Under the pieces are notes generated by a model. That model saw nothing but the letters and a program-made list of their open reading frames with translations. It had not been told where the DNA came from and did no database searches. 20,622 nucleotides of DNA from a virus. Every line of letters starts with the position of its first letter. The first letter of the stretch is position 1. A program made the translations under genes and the position numbers. The DNA is taken from positions 1-20,622 of IMG/VR virus record IMGVR_UViG_3300030419_006873, one strand, 5' to 3'. This document shows positions 2,933 through 19,586 of this stretch, in pieces.

Positions 2933-3118
2933 ATGCGACATATTATAGATAAAGGTTTAGAGAAACTGGTTTCCAGGAAACTGATGGCGTGGGCTACGGC
3001 GACTGGTCTTTTGCTCTTTGCGGATCTGGCCTCTAGCGATTGGGTAATTATTACCACCGTTTATATCGGTGGTCAAACTGTTATTGATGCTGTTGCTAAA
3101 CTGAAAGGCTACAAATGA
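2933..3118 (+). CDS. small membrane protein (holin-like size and topology)
   Basis: This 61-residue protein has a basic N-terminus (RHIIDKGLEKLVSRK) followed by two hydrophobic stretches at about residues 18-32 and 36-54, separated by a short polar turn (ASSDW). The C-terminus is KLKGYK. Size and hydrophobicity fit a small holin or another inner-membrane phage protein. The start ATG has GAGGGAAG about 7 bases upstream. Its stop overlaps the ATG of the next gene (ATGA), so the two are probably translationally coupled. It opens a three-gene run of envelope proteins, which makes a lysis role plausible, but no sequence motif proves it. Confidence 0.65.
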   Translation: MRHIIDKGLEKLVSRKLMAWATATGLLLFADLASSDWVIITTVYIGGQTVIDAVAKLKGYK

Positions 3119-3534
3119 TTGCCGCTATAAAAATTAAAACGGCCGCTAAGAAGACGTGGCTTTGGGCTAAGAAATTTTGGTGGGTTATAGTAATAGGGCT
3201 TCTGTTTTTTTGTGCCGCACTGATTGGCGCTCTCACTCGGAATGGTGCACTTTTGACTGGTGTACTAGATCTGCTGGAGGCCAAGAGAGATGCTCACGAT
3301 CAGGAGATGGAAACGTTAGCTCACATTCACAACACCGAGATCGCCGAAAAGAATGCTCGGCTAGAAGAGCACCTCAAACGCCGCGCTGAGCTTGAAGAAG
3401 AGTTTGCCAAACGAGGGGAGACCCTAGATAGAGAAAAAGAGGCCGAGCTTAAAAGACTCGTAGATGAGAGCTATAATGACCCTGAGAAACTAGCACAAGA
3501 GCTAGCTGAAGCTTTTGGATTAAAGAATGGTTAA
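3115..3534 (+). CDS. membrane-anchored coiled-coil protein (possible inner-membrane spanin)
   Basis: This 139-residue protein has a basic N-terminus, one strong transmembrane segment at about residues 21-42 (WWVIVIGLLFFCAALIGAL), then a long, highly charged, almost uninterrupted helix rich in Glu, Lys, Arg and Ala (about 55-115). It ends with the tail PEKLAQELAEAFGLKNG. This is the topology of an i-spanin, with an N-terminal anchor and periplasmic coiled coil, although other envelope proteins share it. It overlaps both neighbours: ATGA with the upstream gene and 8 bases with the downstream one. There is no catalytic motif. The spanin reading is inference from topology and context. Confidence 0.7.
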   Translation: MIAAIKIKTAAKKTWLWAKKFWWVIVIGLLFFCAALIGALTRNGALLTGVLDLLEAKRDAHDQEMETLAHIHNTEIAEKNARLEEHLKRRAELEEEFAKRGETLDREKEAELKRLVDESYNDPEKLAQELAEAFGLKNG

Positions 3535-3994
3535 AAAGATATTATCACTTTACTTGGCTGCCTTTATGATGTGCCCAGTCATTGCTTTTGCTGAGGACCT
3601 TCCCTCTGCAGAAGAGTATGATGTTGTGCCTTTAGAGGCCGGCGACCCGGCGCCTTTTGATGGAATACTGATTTCTTTCGATGCCGCGGCCAAAATGGCA
3701 GTCGACAAGAAGTTTGAAGATGCCGAGTGTGATCTGCGAATTAGTTATGAACTCCATATGCAAGGAGAGAGGTTTCAACTTCAGTTAGACTATAAGGATG
3801 TTGAGATTACCTCTTGGAAAGACAAGTATGAATCCATGATGATTCTCAAGAGTGCTGAAAATGATCGCTTGACAGATTTGGTTTTAAAACAGAAGCCAGG
3901 AAAGGATCCTTTTCTGGTAGCGCTTGGGTTTGGGATTGGAACACTTACTTCGTTGGGAATTTTTGCATTGTCAACGGAGATAGTACGTGAGTAA
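3527..3994 (+). CDS. exported protein with signal peptide, helical middle and C-terminal TM (possible spanin partner)
   Basis: This 155-residue protein starts with a clear signal peptide: KK, hydrophobic core, then AFA|ED with likely cleavage after residue 22. There is no good lipobox (FMMC does not fit), so signal peptidase I is more likely than lipoprotein processing. An acidic, Pro-rich stretch precedes GDPAPFDGILISFDAAAKM at about 38-56. A helical, charged region follows (60-125), then a hydrophobic Gly-rich segment at about 130-148 that could be a second membrane anchor. The start lies inside the previous gene and the end overlaps the fibre gene. With the two preceding genes it forms a compact envelope cassette. 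A spanin-like role is inferred, and no endolysin is adjacent. Confidence 0.65.
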   Translation: MVKKILSLYLAAFMMCPVIAFAEDLPSAEEYDVVPLEAGDPAPFDGILISFDAAAKMAVDKKFEDAECDLRISYELHMQGERFQLQLDYKDVEITSWKDKYESMMILKSAENDRLTDLVLKQKPGKDPFLVALGFGIGTLTSLGIFALSTEIVRE

Positions 3995-14451: not shown

Positions 14452-14673
14452 ATGGCAGTGAATGTATCGGTGCGCCCTAGACGAGGCGAGTCTCAAGAGA
14501 GGATGATACGACGTTTTTTGAGGAAGTGCAAAAAAGAAAGAATTGTTGAATTGTATCGGGAAAGAACCGATCATCACGTGAAGCCCTCAGTCAAGCGAAA
14601 GCTCAAAAGAAGAAAAGCAATCAGAGAAGCTCAAAAGAGGCAGAGAAAAAAGGAAGCGAAATTCTTTAGGTAA
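14452..14673 (+). CDS. ribosomal protein bS21-like protein
   Basis: This 73-residue, strongly basic protein matches the bS21 family in layout. An N-terminal strand VNVSVRPRRGES is followed by a helix RMIRRFLRKCKKERIVELYRER. Then come H-x-x-KPSVKRKLKRRKA and a Lys/Arg-rich C-terminal helix ending KKEAKFFR. Cellular bS21 is about 70 residues, with V-x-V-R, RRF-R, R-R-x-x-(Y/H)-x-KPS and a basic tail. In the 30S subunit bS21 sits near the anti-Shine-Dalgarno sequence and helps initiation; phage-encoded copies are known from aquatic phages. AGAGGA lies upstream. It is inside the head operon, 9 bases after the scaffold-position gene. Replacement of host bS21 on ribosomes is inference. Confidence 0.8.
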   Translation: MAVNVSVRPRRGESQERMIRRFLRKCKKERIVELYRERTDHHVKPSVKRKLKRRKAIREAQKRQRKKEAKFFR

Positions 14674-15117: not shown

Positions 15118-15633
15118 ATGGCAGACCCTAAAAACAAATGGTCTCAACCGGCTGCCCCGCCGCCTCCCATGTTTTTTGGGAAGAACGAGCGGGACCTTGT
15201 AAAACAAGTTAATGATGAGCTAGCCGAGCGCGTCGTTGGGCAAACAATAGCTTATTATGCGGTGAGCATGCCGGACACTAATTTTAATACCACTTATGGC
15301 GAAGCAATCGATAAAGTAACGCTTCCTCCTGTACGTGTTTACGCATATGTGATTGTTGACAACGAACAGACAAACGAAAAATATGGTTATGACTATCAAT
15401 CTAAACTCACTGTTAACTTTCATCGCCGCCGCCTAGTAGAAGACCAGGATCTATATGTTCGTCCTGGCGATTTTATTCAATATGGCGAGTTGTTTTATGA
15501 GATTGTAAAAACTTATAATGACACCAGATACTATTTTGGCCAGGTTGAGCATAAATTTCAAGTAAGTGCAGAGTGTGTTCGCGCGCGGAGAGGTCTATTT
15601 AGAGTTAAAGAAGCTATAACTAGACCTACGTAG
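15118..15633 (+). CDS. neck protein, T4 gp14-like (first paralogue)
   Basis: This is a 171-residue protein. The order of features (LVKQVNDELAERVVGQTIAYY, YGEAIDK, LTVNFHRRRLVED, RPGDFIQYGELFYEIV, YYFGQVEHKFQVSAE) parallels gp14 neck proteins of T4-like phages: a Y-x-YGE loop, a strand ending in RR, a GD-x-I-x-Y...(F/Y)EI segment and a GQ-strand. gp14 closes the head-tail connector with gp13. Identification is by pattern, not by search. The N-terminus is Pro-rich (PAAPPPPMFFG). A near-duplicate follows 14 bases downstream with a fibre domain added. By hand alignment the two differ at roughly 37 of 171 positions. Confidence 0.7.
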   Translation: MADPKNKWSQPAAPPPPMFFGKNERDLVKQVNDELAERVVGQTIAYYAVSMPDTNFNTTYGEAIDKVTLPPVRVYAYVIVDNEQTNEKYGYDYQSKLTVNFHRRRLVEDQDLYVRPGDFIQYGELFYEIVKTYNDTRYYFGQVEHKFQVSAECVRARRGLFRVKEAITRPT

Positions 15634-15647
15634 GAGGGGACACATCA

Positions 15648-17231
15648 ATGGCGGATCCTAAAAATAAGTGGACAAGACCAGCTGCGCCTCCCCCTCCGAT
15701 GTTTTTCGGGGAAAAAGAACGCAACCTTGTAAAGCAAGTTAACGACGAACTAGCCGAACGCGTTCTTGGCCAGACGATTGCTTATTATCCTATAAGCATT
15801 GAAGAATCTAATTTCAATGACATTTATGGCGAAGCGCAGGAGAAGGTCTCGCTACCTCCTGTGCGCGTGTTTGCCTATGTTGAGGTAGAGAATGAGCAAT
15901 CAAATGCGAAGTATGGATATGAGTACCAGACAAAACTAACAGTTAATTTTCACCGACGCCGATTGGTGGAAGATCAAAACCTGTATGTGCGCGTTGGTGA
16001 TTTTATTCAATACGGGGATTTTTTTTACGAGATTGTTAGAACGTATAATGATACGCGTTATTATTTTGGGCAAGTAGAACACAAATTTCAAATTAGTGCC
16101 GAGTGTGTCCGTGCGCGAGACGGTGTATTCCGGGTGATGCCTTCGGTCGATCGGCCGACCCTGACGCAGGAGGAGGCAACGGATGCTTCTAATCCAGCAC
16201 CCCGGGCTGCCCCATATCCTCCGCTCGCAGCCACATACATAACTCTCACAGCGGACACAAAGCTTCCCAACGAGAGGGTCCTAACAGCTGGAGCTGGTAT
16301 CTCCCTTACCGACAGCGGCCCGGGCAATGCGTTGACCATTGCTGCCAGTGGTCAAAATGCCGTCGGCCCCACAGGCTCCCTACAATTCCAACAGGGTGGT
16401 GGCTCTTTTACTGGAAGTGCTAATTTAACTTTTCTTTCCTCTAGTGGGCGCCTGGGAATCAATACGGATGCACCCTCGCACTCTTTAACCATTATTGGAG
16501 CCCTGTCTGCTTCGAGCGACGCGTTTTTTGGGGGAGATGTAACGATCGCCGGCACTCTTATCGGCGGTTCGCCCCTCAAGATCTCGGGATCCATCAATAT
16601 TGTTAACTCTGTGGGCACTATTACAACTGTGCTGGGTTCGTCTAGTCTGGGTACGGGGGTACTGAGTTCTTCTCTTAATCTTGCAGATGTTATTAGTGCT
16701 AGTTATATTCACATTGCGAGTGCCTCTGCGGGAACAGGCGCATCAGCATCGAGCTATTTAGCCCTAGATTCAAACAACAATATAATTCTAACATCTTCTA
16801 CTGGCACAGGGGGAGGTGGCTCCGCAAATGCTCAGGGCCCAGTGGGATCTCTTCAGTTTCAGACCGGCTCCGGAGGCATTAGTGGGTCGGCCGCGGTTCT
16901 GTATGATTTTAGCAACAACCATCTTACTATTGATGGGGGATTAATTCACAGTCGCGCTGCTATCTCAACTGTGAGCTATACCGCCTCGGCAGCAAATTAT
17001 ATTTTGGGCGTCACCACTGTGCCTACAAATATTCTTTTTGATGCCACTACGTGTGTTACAGGGCAGGTAATGGTAATAAAAGATGAAACCGGCAACGCCT
17101 CCGGAGCAAATTTAATTTCTCTTAATGCATCGGGGTCCCAAACGATAGATGGTAATAGTTCTGCATACATAGAGTCACCCTACGGTTCAGTGTTGTTATA
17201 TACCGATGGCGCTGATTGGTTTATTTACTAA
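15648..17231 (+). CDS. gp14-like neck protein fused to fibre-like domain (second paralogue)
   Basis: This is a 527-residue protein. Residues 1-170 are a close copy of the preceding gp14-like protein. Residues 171-195 are a Pro/Ala linker (NPAPRAAPYPPLA). The rest is Ser/Gly/Ala/Thr-rich, fibre-like sequence with two copies of a GSLQFQ-x-GxGG-x-GSA motif (243 and 400), a SSGRLGINTDAPSHSLTI unit, and a C-terminal module with SGSQTIDG and ESPYGSVLL (about 491-527). The start is supported by TAGGAGGGG. In T4 the separate protein fibritin (wac) attaches whiskers at the neck; here a neck-like domain carries its own fibre. That role is inference, but the fusion is unbroken in sequence. Confidence 0.78.
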   Translation: MADPKNKWTRPAAPPPPMFFGEKERNLVKQVNDELAERVLGQTIAYYPISIEESNFNDIYGEAQEKVSLPPVRVFAYVEVENEQSNAKYGYEYQTKLTVNFHRRRLVEDQNLYVRVGDFIQYGDFFYEIVRTYNDTRYYFGQVEHKFQISAECVRARDGVFRVMPSVDRPTLTQEEATDASNPAPRAAPYPPLAATYITLTADTKLPNERVLTAGAGISLTDSGPGNALTIAASGQNAVGPTGSLQFQQGGGSFTGSANLTFLSSSGRLGINTDAPSHSLTIIGALSASSDAFFGGDVTIAGTLIGGSPLKISGSINIVNSVGTITTVLGSSSLGTGVLSSSLNLADVISASYIHIASASAGTGASASSYLALDSNNNIILTSSTGTGGGGSANAQGPVGSLQFQTGSGGISGSAAVLYDFSNNHLTIDGGLIHSRAAISTVSYTASAANYILGVTTVPTNILFDATTCVTGQVMVIKDETGNASGANLISLNASGSQTIDGNSSAYIESPYGSVLLYTDGADWFIY

Positions 17232-17390: not shown

Positions 17391-19586
17391 ATGGCATATA
17401 AATTTCAATTGGGTCAGGCAATTCTGTCCGGCGCATTGCAGCAAGAAGGCAATGTTGTCGTAGAGAATGAAGCTGGCTCTACAGTAGGACATATCCTACA
17501 ATCTGGTATTATTTCCGGTTCGGGACAGCTCCAGGGTGCGTCGGTCGACGTCGACGGCGCTGTTGATGGTAAGGACGGCTTTAAGGTCGATGGCACAGCT
17601 ATTGTCGATTCGGCCCGCGCAGTCAGTAACGTAACAAGCATTGACGGCTCTGGTGATCTGACAATGGGTACCATCACAATGACAAATTTCTCTGTCGGCG
17701 CTGCTGGCGCTCTCAGTGCCGCCTCGGTCGTCTCCAGAGCCACAGTCAGTGGTTCGGGACAGCTCCAGGGTGCTTCCGTTGGTGTTGATGGTGCGGTTAC
17801 AGCCGGAACTTCGTTCATCATCGGCTCTGCCGACTTGAATGAAGCCGATATGGAGAAGCTTGACGGTATTACTAATGGTACTGCTGCGGCTTCCAAGGCT
17901 GTTGTTTTGGATGCTGCGAAGGATATCACTGGTATTAACAACCTGACTGCTTCGTACTTCTCTGGCGACGGTTCTGGCATCACCAACATCAACGTTTCTA
18001 ACCTTGATGCTGTTGGCTCTGACACCCAGGTACAGTTCAACCAGAATGGTGAGTTCGGCGCAAACGCCAACTTCACTTATGATGGCTCGGGCTCTCTTTC
18101 AGTCTCGACCAACTATAGTGTCGACAGCGGTGGTACTGTGACTATTGGTAGCACTTCTATTGATGAGACCGCGTACGCTCAGATTGGTGGCATCACTGCC
18201 GGTACAGCCGCAGCCTCTAAGGCTGTTGTTCTTGATGCGAGTCTAGACGTCAGCGGTTTCCGTAACGTTTCGGGCTCCGGCAACGGTAAGTTCCGGAGTG
18301 TATACGCCGCTGACCTTACACAGGGTCGTCTTGTCACAGCTGGAACATCAGGTCTTCTCGAAGATCAGGCTGCTCTGTACTATGATGATTCACGCGAGGA
18401 CGGCTTCCTTGAATTGTATGTTAGCTCCAGTGCTTCTGGTAGCGTTGGGATCGGCGATGGTATTATCGAACTTTACAATGCAGATGACGACGTTCTTTTT
18501 GTGGCGTCCGACTATGACGCCTCCATCGCTGAGTCTGGGCTCTTCATTGGAGACCAAGCCGCCCCTGCTGCAGTGCTTGCATCAGGGGACGTCATGGTGT
18601 TCCTCGATGGCGACGACGACGATCGGCTAAAGAAGGAGAGCATTGACGATATTGCTACTCTCTTTGCGGGTACAGGTCTTGCAGCTGCTTCTGCAGTTCT
18701 AAGCCTTGATCTCAATGAGTTGACTGCTGCCAGTGTTGACGTCGCTGCCGATAGCATTGCTATCATCGACGCCAACGACAGTAACGGTACTCGCAAGGAA
18801 AGCATTGCTGATCTCATGTCCGCTGTGGCCGGCGAGGGTCTCAAGGCTAGTTCCGGTGCTTTGGCGCTTGATTTCTCTGAGGTCACCACCGGCTCCATCG
18901 CCGCAGGCGATTCGCTCATTTTTGTTGACTCGGATGGCTCCAATGTCACTCGGTCTGATACCATTAATGATCTAGCTACTTTGATGGCTGGTAACGGTCT
19001 CGGGGCGAGTAACGCTGTCCTTGCTGTTCAGGTGTCCGGTGCGCTTGCTGTGGCAGACGATTACATTGGTATTCCGGCTTCTTTTGCTGGAACCGGTCTT
19101 GCGCCTGACGTTAGCAATAACTGGATCGGGAGCTTGAGCCTTGACCTCAACGAGTTGGGTGCTCTTGGTAGCGCTGGAGTGGTTGCGGCTGATCAGCTTG
19201 CATTTGTTGATGCCACGGACAGTAGCACGAAGAAGGTTACAATGGCCAACTTCCTCAGCAGCATTGCTGGCGCAGGTGTTAGTGTTTCGAATGGTAAGTT
19301 GATTACTGAGGGTGGTGCCGTGCAGGAAGTTAAGACAGACAACCTCACGCTAAAGGAAGGTTATAACTACATGACCGGCTCTGCAGCGCTCACGTTGACA
19401 CTTCCCGCCTCTCCGAGCGCTGGTGACATTGTTCATGTGAAGGCTGGTAATCTTAGTGGAGTTGCCGTTACAATCACGGGCTCAGGCGCGCAGGTAATGG
19501 ATGGAGAATCTTCTATTCTTCTGGAATCCCCTTATGCTGCTGTGTCCCTGGTATACATGACTACTAATAAGTGGAACCTCGTCTAG
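17391..19586 (+). CDS. 731-residue repetitive virion protein (abundant appendage/structural protein candidate)
   Basis: This is a large Ala/Ser/Gly/Asp/Val-rich protein with several internal repeats. SGSGQLQGASV-x-VDGAV occurs twice near the start. Two copies of a GITxGTAAASKAVVLDA unit follow, then a fibre motif DTQVQFNQNGEFG (211). From about residue 400 there are four copies of a 50-95-residue unit (near 400, 454, 507 and 601) with the pattern D-x-(I/L/V)-x-F/I-x-D...(K/R)-x-(S/T)-(I/M)...AG-x-G(L/V). The C-terminal module (SGAQVMDG, ESPYAAV, about 695-731) matches the end of the neck-fibre protein. A strong SD, an isolated leader, a downstream terminator and biased codons (18 of 19 Lys are AAG) suggest high expression. 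No enzyme motif is visible. It is not recognised as a major capsid protein. Confidence 0.85.
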   Translation: MAYKFQLGQAILSGALQQEGNVVVENEAGSTVGHILQSGIISGSGQLQGASVDVDGAVDGKDGFKVDGTAIVDSARAVSNVTSIDGSGDLTMGTITMTNFSVGAAGALSAASVVSRATVSGSGQLQGASVGVDGAVTAGTSFIIGSADLNEADMEKLDGITNGTAAASKAVVLDAAKDITGINNLTASYFSGDGSGITNINVSNLDAVGSDTQVQFNQNGEFGANANFTYDGSGSLSVSTNYSVDSGGTVTIGSTSIDETAYAQIGGITAGTAAASKAVVLDASLDVSGFRNVSGSGNGKFRSVYAADLTQGRLVTAGTSGLLEDQAALYYDDSREDGFLELYVSSSASGSVGIGDGIIELYNADDDVLFVASDYDASIAESGLFIGDQAAPAAVLASGDVMVFLDGDDDDRLKKESIDDIATLFAGTGLAAASAVLSLDLNELTAASVDVAADSIAIIDANDSNGTRKESIADLMSAVAGEGLKASSGALALDFSEVTTGSIAAGDSLIFVDSDGSNVTRSDTINDLATLMAGNGLGASNAVLAVQVSGALAVADDYIGIPASFAGTGLAPDVSNNWIGSLSLDLNELGALGSAGVVAADQLAFVDATDSSTKKVTMANFLSSIAGAGVSVSNGKLITEGGAVQEVKTDNLTLKEGYNYMTGSAALTLTLPASPSAGDIVHVKAGNLSGVAVTITGSGAQVMDGESSILLESPYAAVSLVYMTTNKWNLV
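17517..17773 (+). repeat. 23-base exact direct repeat pair within the 731-residue protein gene
   Basis: The 23-base segment at 17517-17539 recurs exactly at 17751-17773, 234 bases (78 codons) later and in frame. It encodes the GSGQLQGA segment of the first protein repeat. Because synonymous positions are identical, the duplication is recent, has been gene-converted, or is kept by codon constraint. Confidence 0.85.
18588..19315 (+). repeat. four imperfect protein-level tandem repeats
   Basis: Units begin near codons 400 (DVMVFLDGDDDD), 454 (DSIAIIDANDSN), 507 (DSLIFVDSDGSN) and 601 (DQLAFVDATDSS). Each continues to an AGxGL/V-like turn and a LxLDLNEL-like strand. The third copy carries an extra insert of about 40 residues (SGALAVADDYIGIPASFAG and on). 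The regular spacing suggests a repeated beta-module along a shaft. Similarity is at protein level; the DNA copies have diverged. Confidence 0.72.

Follow-up and report, generated by a model that had tools for sequence, protein, structure and literature searches.

In the window analysed here, a stretch of 20,622 nt (positions 1 to 20,622 of IMG/VR record IMGVR_UViG_3300030419_006873) that is a fragment of a T4-superfamily myovirus, a gp14-type head-closure protein has probably been relocated to the fibre genes and joined to a fibre, and its unfused and fused copies, A and B, most likely share one ring. The features that bear on this reading are:

7548, large terminase
9138, gp20 portal
13394, gp21 protease
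14452..14673, + strand, bS21-like ribosomal protein gene, which marks the fibre locus (match to annotated RpsU of Microcystis phage Mel-JY01)
14716..15111, + strand, p131, small conserved protein between bS21 and the gp14/fibre genes (neighbourhood in relatives)
15118..15633, + strand, copy A, short unfused gp14-like head-closure protein, 171 aa (ORF, AF2 fold, T4 gp14 profile, synteny of relatives)
15632..15639, + strand, AGGAGGGG, strong Shine-Dalgarno-like site for copy B (sequence)
15648..17231, + strand, copy B, gp14-fibre fusion, 527 aa (ORF, identity to A, orthologue clade)
15648..16160, + strand, gp14 domain of copy B, residues 1-171 (37 differences from A; low dN/dS)
16161..16226, + strand, Pro/Ala linker of copy B, residues 172-193, LTQEEATDASNPAPRAAPYPPL (translation)
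16227..17228, + strand, fibre-like region of copy B, residues 194-527 (matches to a free-standing protein; phrog_20556)
16854..17228, + strand, C-terminal module of copy B, 125 aa, gp9/gp10/tailspike-like by prediction (AF2, Foldseek)
17391..19586, + strand, the free-standing fibre gene that follows, encoding 731 aa, its C-terminus bearing a related motif (match to the proximal tail fibre family phrog_972, E 4.5e-4)

The first-pass annotation had counted about 37 differences by hand in a shared domain of some 170 residues, and the number is exactly 37 over 171 aligned residues (78.4% identity); at the DNA level the copies are 73% identical over the first 164 codons. They are separated by 14 bases, between which a scan found no terminator-like site. 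Open reading frames and translation agree with the earlier description that the second gene alone extends past the domain, through a linker with the stretch PAPRAAPYPPL into about 330 fibre-like residues. The proposed search of related phages for the same arrangement revealed the tandem in a dozen other contigs, and in the gp14 tree the A and B copies form two separate, well supported clades. The pair is therefore neither a chance product nor an assembly error.

Since Pfam, PHROG and phmmer-PDB searches with the shared domain gave no meaningful match, and none of the gp14 models in Pfam or PHROG hits it by sequence, its identity rests on predicted fold, profile comparison and synteny. An AF2 model of moderate quality (pLDDT 71), built from a 95-sequence alignment, has the T4 portal-neck-tail complex as its top PDB match in Foldseek (9mkb, E 1.5e-4, prob 1.00); ranked below it are neck and stopper proteins of Pam3, Chi, PhiKZ, Bxb1 and T1; the T4 gp14 entries 9lu7 and 9lu5 are also among the matches. 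TM-scores of these structural matches are about 0.4-0.55. With a profile of 11 annotated gp14 members, T4 residues 35-171 align to residues 20-151 of the window protein (E 1.1e-5, prob 82%), and the profile-profile runs as a whole give remote rather than strong matches that extend collinearly for some 130 residues (E 1e-4 to 1e-5, prob 57-82%). Against T4 gp14 as a single sequence, hhalign was not significant (E 0.07), with the controls gp13, gp15, gp19 and wac at E 0.18-0.58. Two other candidates were set aside: Pfam matches to TssN and DUF444 are weak and under their cut-offs, and the 619-aa "neck protein" of Tenacibaculum phage PTm1, a structural match in the viral library, fails to match the gp14 profile and shows no visible fibre character. 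Taken together, predicted fold, profile alignment and the gene order of relatives agree with the original proposal of a gp14-like neck domain, and the shared domain is very likely a relative of the T4 head-closure protein gp14 (Hc2). Placement outside the connector and neck families had been named as the outcome that would speak against it; the domain falls inside them.

The relocation emerges from a survey of nonredundant relatives among marine viral contigs, the records of which are unfinished. In about 80 distant IMG/VR relatives the gene lies after a gp13 homologue and before a gp15-like gene, an order also found in Flavobacterium phage immuto and Microcystis phage Mel-JY01 and, across the family as a whole, in about 120 relatives. 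At this canonical place the gene is short in 121 of 122 domains, the single extended one being L128 (507 aa), whereas the fibre locus behind bS21 and p131 carries the fused gene only in 25 cases, the short and fused tandem in 12-13 and the short gene only in about ten (Fisher p 2e-27, with relatedness ignored). The short-only genomes show that fusion at the fibre locus is not obligatory. Because the canonical relatives are about 75-80% identical to the window-type domain, we read the window-type gene as a member of the gp14 family that has moved and not as a non-member, which documents a core connector gene leaving its conserved neighbourhood. In every fibre-locus contig that reaches both gp13 and gp15, these two genes abut with no gp14 between them. 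The fibre-locus copy or pair is the sole gp14 detected in G001 (194 kb), G002 (165 kb), G004, G005, G007 and G009, and searching the 194-kb and 165-kb records from end to end turned up no additional copy; given that a very diverged extra gp14 may exist in these unfinished records, sole-copy status is strong, not absolute. No relatives were found in GTDB genome contigs, and no isolate of the lineage in the collections. Detection of no gp14 other than the fused gene in the fused-only genomes argues that the head-closure ring itself bears the fibre and, since this applies to many relatives, that the fusion is a neck-ring property of the whole lineage rather than an adhesin made from a spare copy.

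In the gp14 tree, the tandem A copies, two excepted, group with short-only relatives in a single clade, and the tandem B copies, again with two exceptions, form one clade within the fused group; the L064/L065 pair seems to represent an independent second tandem. The AU test does not reject relocation as a single event (p 0.43), so that two separate relocations are unneeded. Both copies are retained by purifying selection, with dN/dS of about 0.03-0.04 (median 0.027 for the gp14 domain of copy B), values that are rough because dS is saturated for many pairs, and that derive from few pairs. Between A and B, synonymous sites have reached saturation as well, which together with the low dN/dS indicates that the pair is old and that both members are used.

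Alternatively, A alone might build the neck ring, B being an adhesin or fibre whose gp14-derived domain is just an anchor elsewhere, e.g. on top of A or on gp13 or gp15. Such a division of labour is possible, and we regard it as rather unlikely. It would fit that both copies are kept as separate clades in the tandem genomes and that B alone has changed: Q10R, D26N and I64K mark B of tandem genomes and are absent or nearly so in A, fused-only and canonical proteins, copy A retaining the ancestral residues at positions 10, 26 and 64. However, these are shared changes of one clade and could be neutral, B is under constraint as strong as A, and in fused-only genomes with no other detectable gp14 the fused protein evidently does the job of the ring. 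Position 26 lies in the predicted N-terminal helix, which in T4 is the part of gp14 in contact with gp13 (PMC12270204); this fits a co-adaptation of A and B on gp13, but might also stem from chance shared descent.

The fused part itself, which the first-pass annotation took for fibre-type sequence, turned out to have a free-standing homologue at the fibre locus and a gp9/gp10-like module. The last 159 residues of copy B are matched by a 255-aa protein encoded on its own in G003 (E 1e-48) and by a counterpart in G016 (55% identity). Both genomes keep the ancestral order with gp14 between gp13 and gp15, and in G003 the free-standing fibre-tail gene occupies the same locus behind p131. The fibre-like region matches a baseplate protein family (phrog_20556), and the C-terminal 125-aa module gave a confident AF2 model (pLDDT 87.6) with Foldseek matches to the Solidus tailspike, T4 gp9 (1qex), T4 gp10 and CBA120 TSP4. 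PF07880 appears in 6 of 31 homologues of this module, under the curated cut-off in those shown, and hhalign against T4 wac revealed no homology (E 0.1, 11 columns). Across the family the fused proteins span 361 to 1425 aa, and most share a PAPR.APYPP-like linker (a loose Pro-rich pattern occurs in 31 of 37). In pairwise comparisons of fusions, identity is about 81% for the gp14 domains (median) and about 44% for the fibre parts, which align over roughly two thirds of their length. Since the C-terminal end is conserved across most fusions, we consider it more probable that this end trimerises or docks than that it is a variable tip for receptor binding; modules of the gp9/gp10/TSP4 type serve as trimeric spacers, or lie beside docking sites, in baseplates and branched tailspikes (PMC8825819). 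In the tandem genome L022 (8531-14062), the conserved C-terminal module is carried by the following gene (423 aa) and not by the end of the 1419-aa fusion, an exchange of modules between adjacent fibre genes.

With its location among fibre genes and a C-terminal module like that of baseplate gp9 and gp10, the fused protein might instead be a tail or baseplate fibre, the N-terminal domain of which is merely a gp14-like stopper beta-barrel with no role at the neck, and stopper-like beta-barrels are indeed widespread. We consider this very unlikely, as relatives that are some 75-80% identical lie between gp13 and gp15, and as this slot is empty in contigs with the gene at the fibre locus. The most improbable and already disfavoured reading takes the tandem for a short-lived duplication in which one copy is redundant and heading for loss; this would suit the related genomes that hold only one of the two forms but not the persistence of each clade, A and B, in about ten diverged genomes, at dN/dS of about 0.03-0.04 and saturated A/B dS.

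Under the preferred reading of a relocated and fused head-closure protein, the gp14-type protein would make up the ring that lies between gp13, the adaptor, and gp15, the tail terminator. Its gene would have departed from the gp13-gp15 place, settled at the start of the fibre genes, behind bS21 and p131, and there acquired a fibre by fusion. In genomes with the fused gene as sole copy, every ring subunit would bear a C-terminal fibre chain; in the window's phage, with A and B, both would most likely enter one ring and the fibre would be present on some subunits only. In T4, gp14 is a hexamer on the gp13 dodecamer (PMC12270204; PDB 9LU4-9LU7, 9MKB), and its C-terminal arm exits the core near residue 178, residues 178-256 binding gp15 (PMC12270204). 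As the fusion after residue 171 lies close to this exit point, the fibre might project outward from the ring. With all six chains fused, two trimers could assemble, and fewer in a mixed ring, and the fibre would act as a whisker or docking arm. The computations show what the domain is, that its gene has moved and become fused, that it is the sole copy in several contigs and that both paralogues are conserved; incorporation into virions, trimerisation of the fibre chains, the mixed ring suggested by the first-pass annotation and a use of the fibre as whisker or docking arm are what we infer. In sum, it is probable that the neck ring has fibres of its own. A more detailed arrangement can be put forward tentatively: plain and fibre-bearing gp14 would alternate on the gp13 dodecamer, the A:B ratio would set the number of built-in fibres, and the gp9/10-like tips would dock other fibres. 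If so, a 3:3 A:B ring would hold one trimer, compared with two for six fused subunits. In any case, a fused ring must still admit gp15 and tail docking, and A and B might also be alternatives that never meet in one ring.

Among the neighbouring genes, the phage-encoded bS21-like gene has a position conserved across relatives. The protein p131 has no family match; it is the same neighbour in the relocated loci and in G003 with its ancestral order, and is a candidate structural partner of the fibres. The product of the 731-aa fibre gene matches the tail of copy B weakly. Elsewhere in the window, a gene on the minus strand (2184-2891), opposite to its neighbours, encodes a protein with an HPD-containing J-domain-like stretch (HKIATQTHPDK). 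Two overlapping genes at 3115-3994, the first with a weak match to an Rz-like spanin (phrog_1403) and the second with a signal-peptide-like start, are a possible spanin pair.

Extensions of gp14 are also found outside the relocated lineage. In L128 (6001-7524), a relative of Flavobacterium phage immuto, gp14 has about 350 extra residues at the canonical gp13-gp15 place, and the phage collection searched held no relative of the extra part. In L288 (6001-6834) and L310 (4261-5094), gp14 follows gp15 and has an extension of about 115 residues that resembles a fibre tip. Fusions of similar appearance have thus arisen independently at least twice more. Cyanophage gp14 of Sf-CH5 (464 aa) and ACG-2014f (492 aa) likewise consists of the gp14 core and a long C-terminal extension, but it is single, stays between gp13 and gp15 and has different extensions, with an acidic end and an NPFG or DPFG motif. 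Since L128, L288/L310 and the cyanophages carry separate extensions, C-terminal extension of gp14 is a recurrent event, of which the relocated lineage is the extreme form.

In comparison with T4 gp14, the domain described here shares the predicted fold, an N-terminal helix followed by a beta-rich core, and, in its relatives, the gp13-gp15 order; however, T4 gp14 is single-copy and lacks a fibre, whereas here the core ends near residues 165-171 and copy B runs on into one. The whiskers of T4 are made of fibritin (gpwac), a separate protein on domain III of gp13 (PMC12270204), so that the predicted location of the fibres at the neck is shared, but here they would be a covalent part of a gp14-type ring. 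The collar spikes of Vibrio phage XM1 are fibrous trimers of gp40 attached to gp4, the head-completion ring that corresponds in position to gp14 (PMC10457771), which demonstrates that a gp14-equivalent ring is able to bear fibrous trimers via a separate protein. In XM1, gp40 attaches through an Ig-like anchor domain with six trimers per hexamer, whereas here the anchor is the ring protein itself. The predicted fold of the last 100 residues is shared with T4 gp9 and gp10 and CBA120 TSP4, and here it ends a neck-protein fusion. A search of the open literature, not exhaustive and with few subscription journals, yielded no published gp14-fibre fusion or gp14 tandem, in line with the first-pass annotation, which knew of no described example. 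While the known neck fibres, T4 whiskers and XM1 collar spikes, are separate proteins, it is here the head-sealing protein itself that is fused, in many marine phages and at times as the only copy. If our reading is true, an external appendage is coupled directly to the genome gate of a pressurised head, and the natural variants with a fibre on none, all or some of the subunits offer a test of the role of neck fibres.
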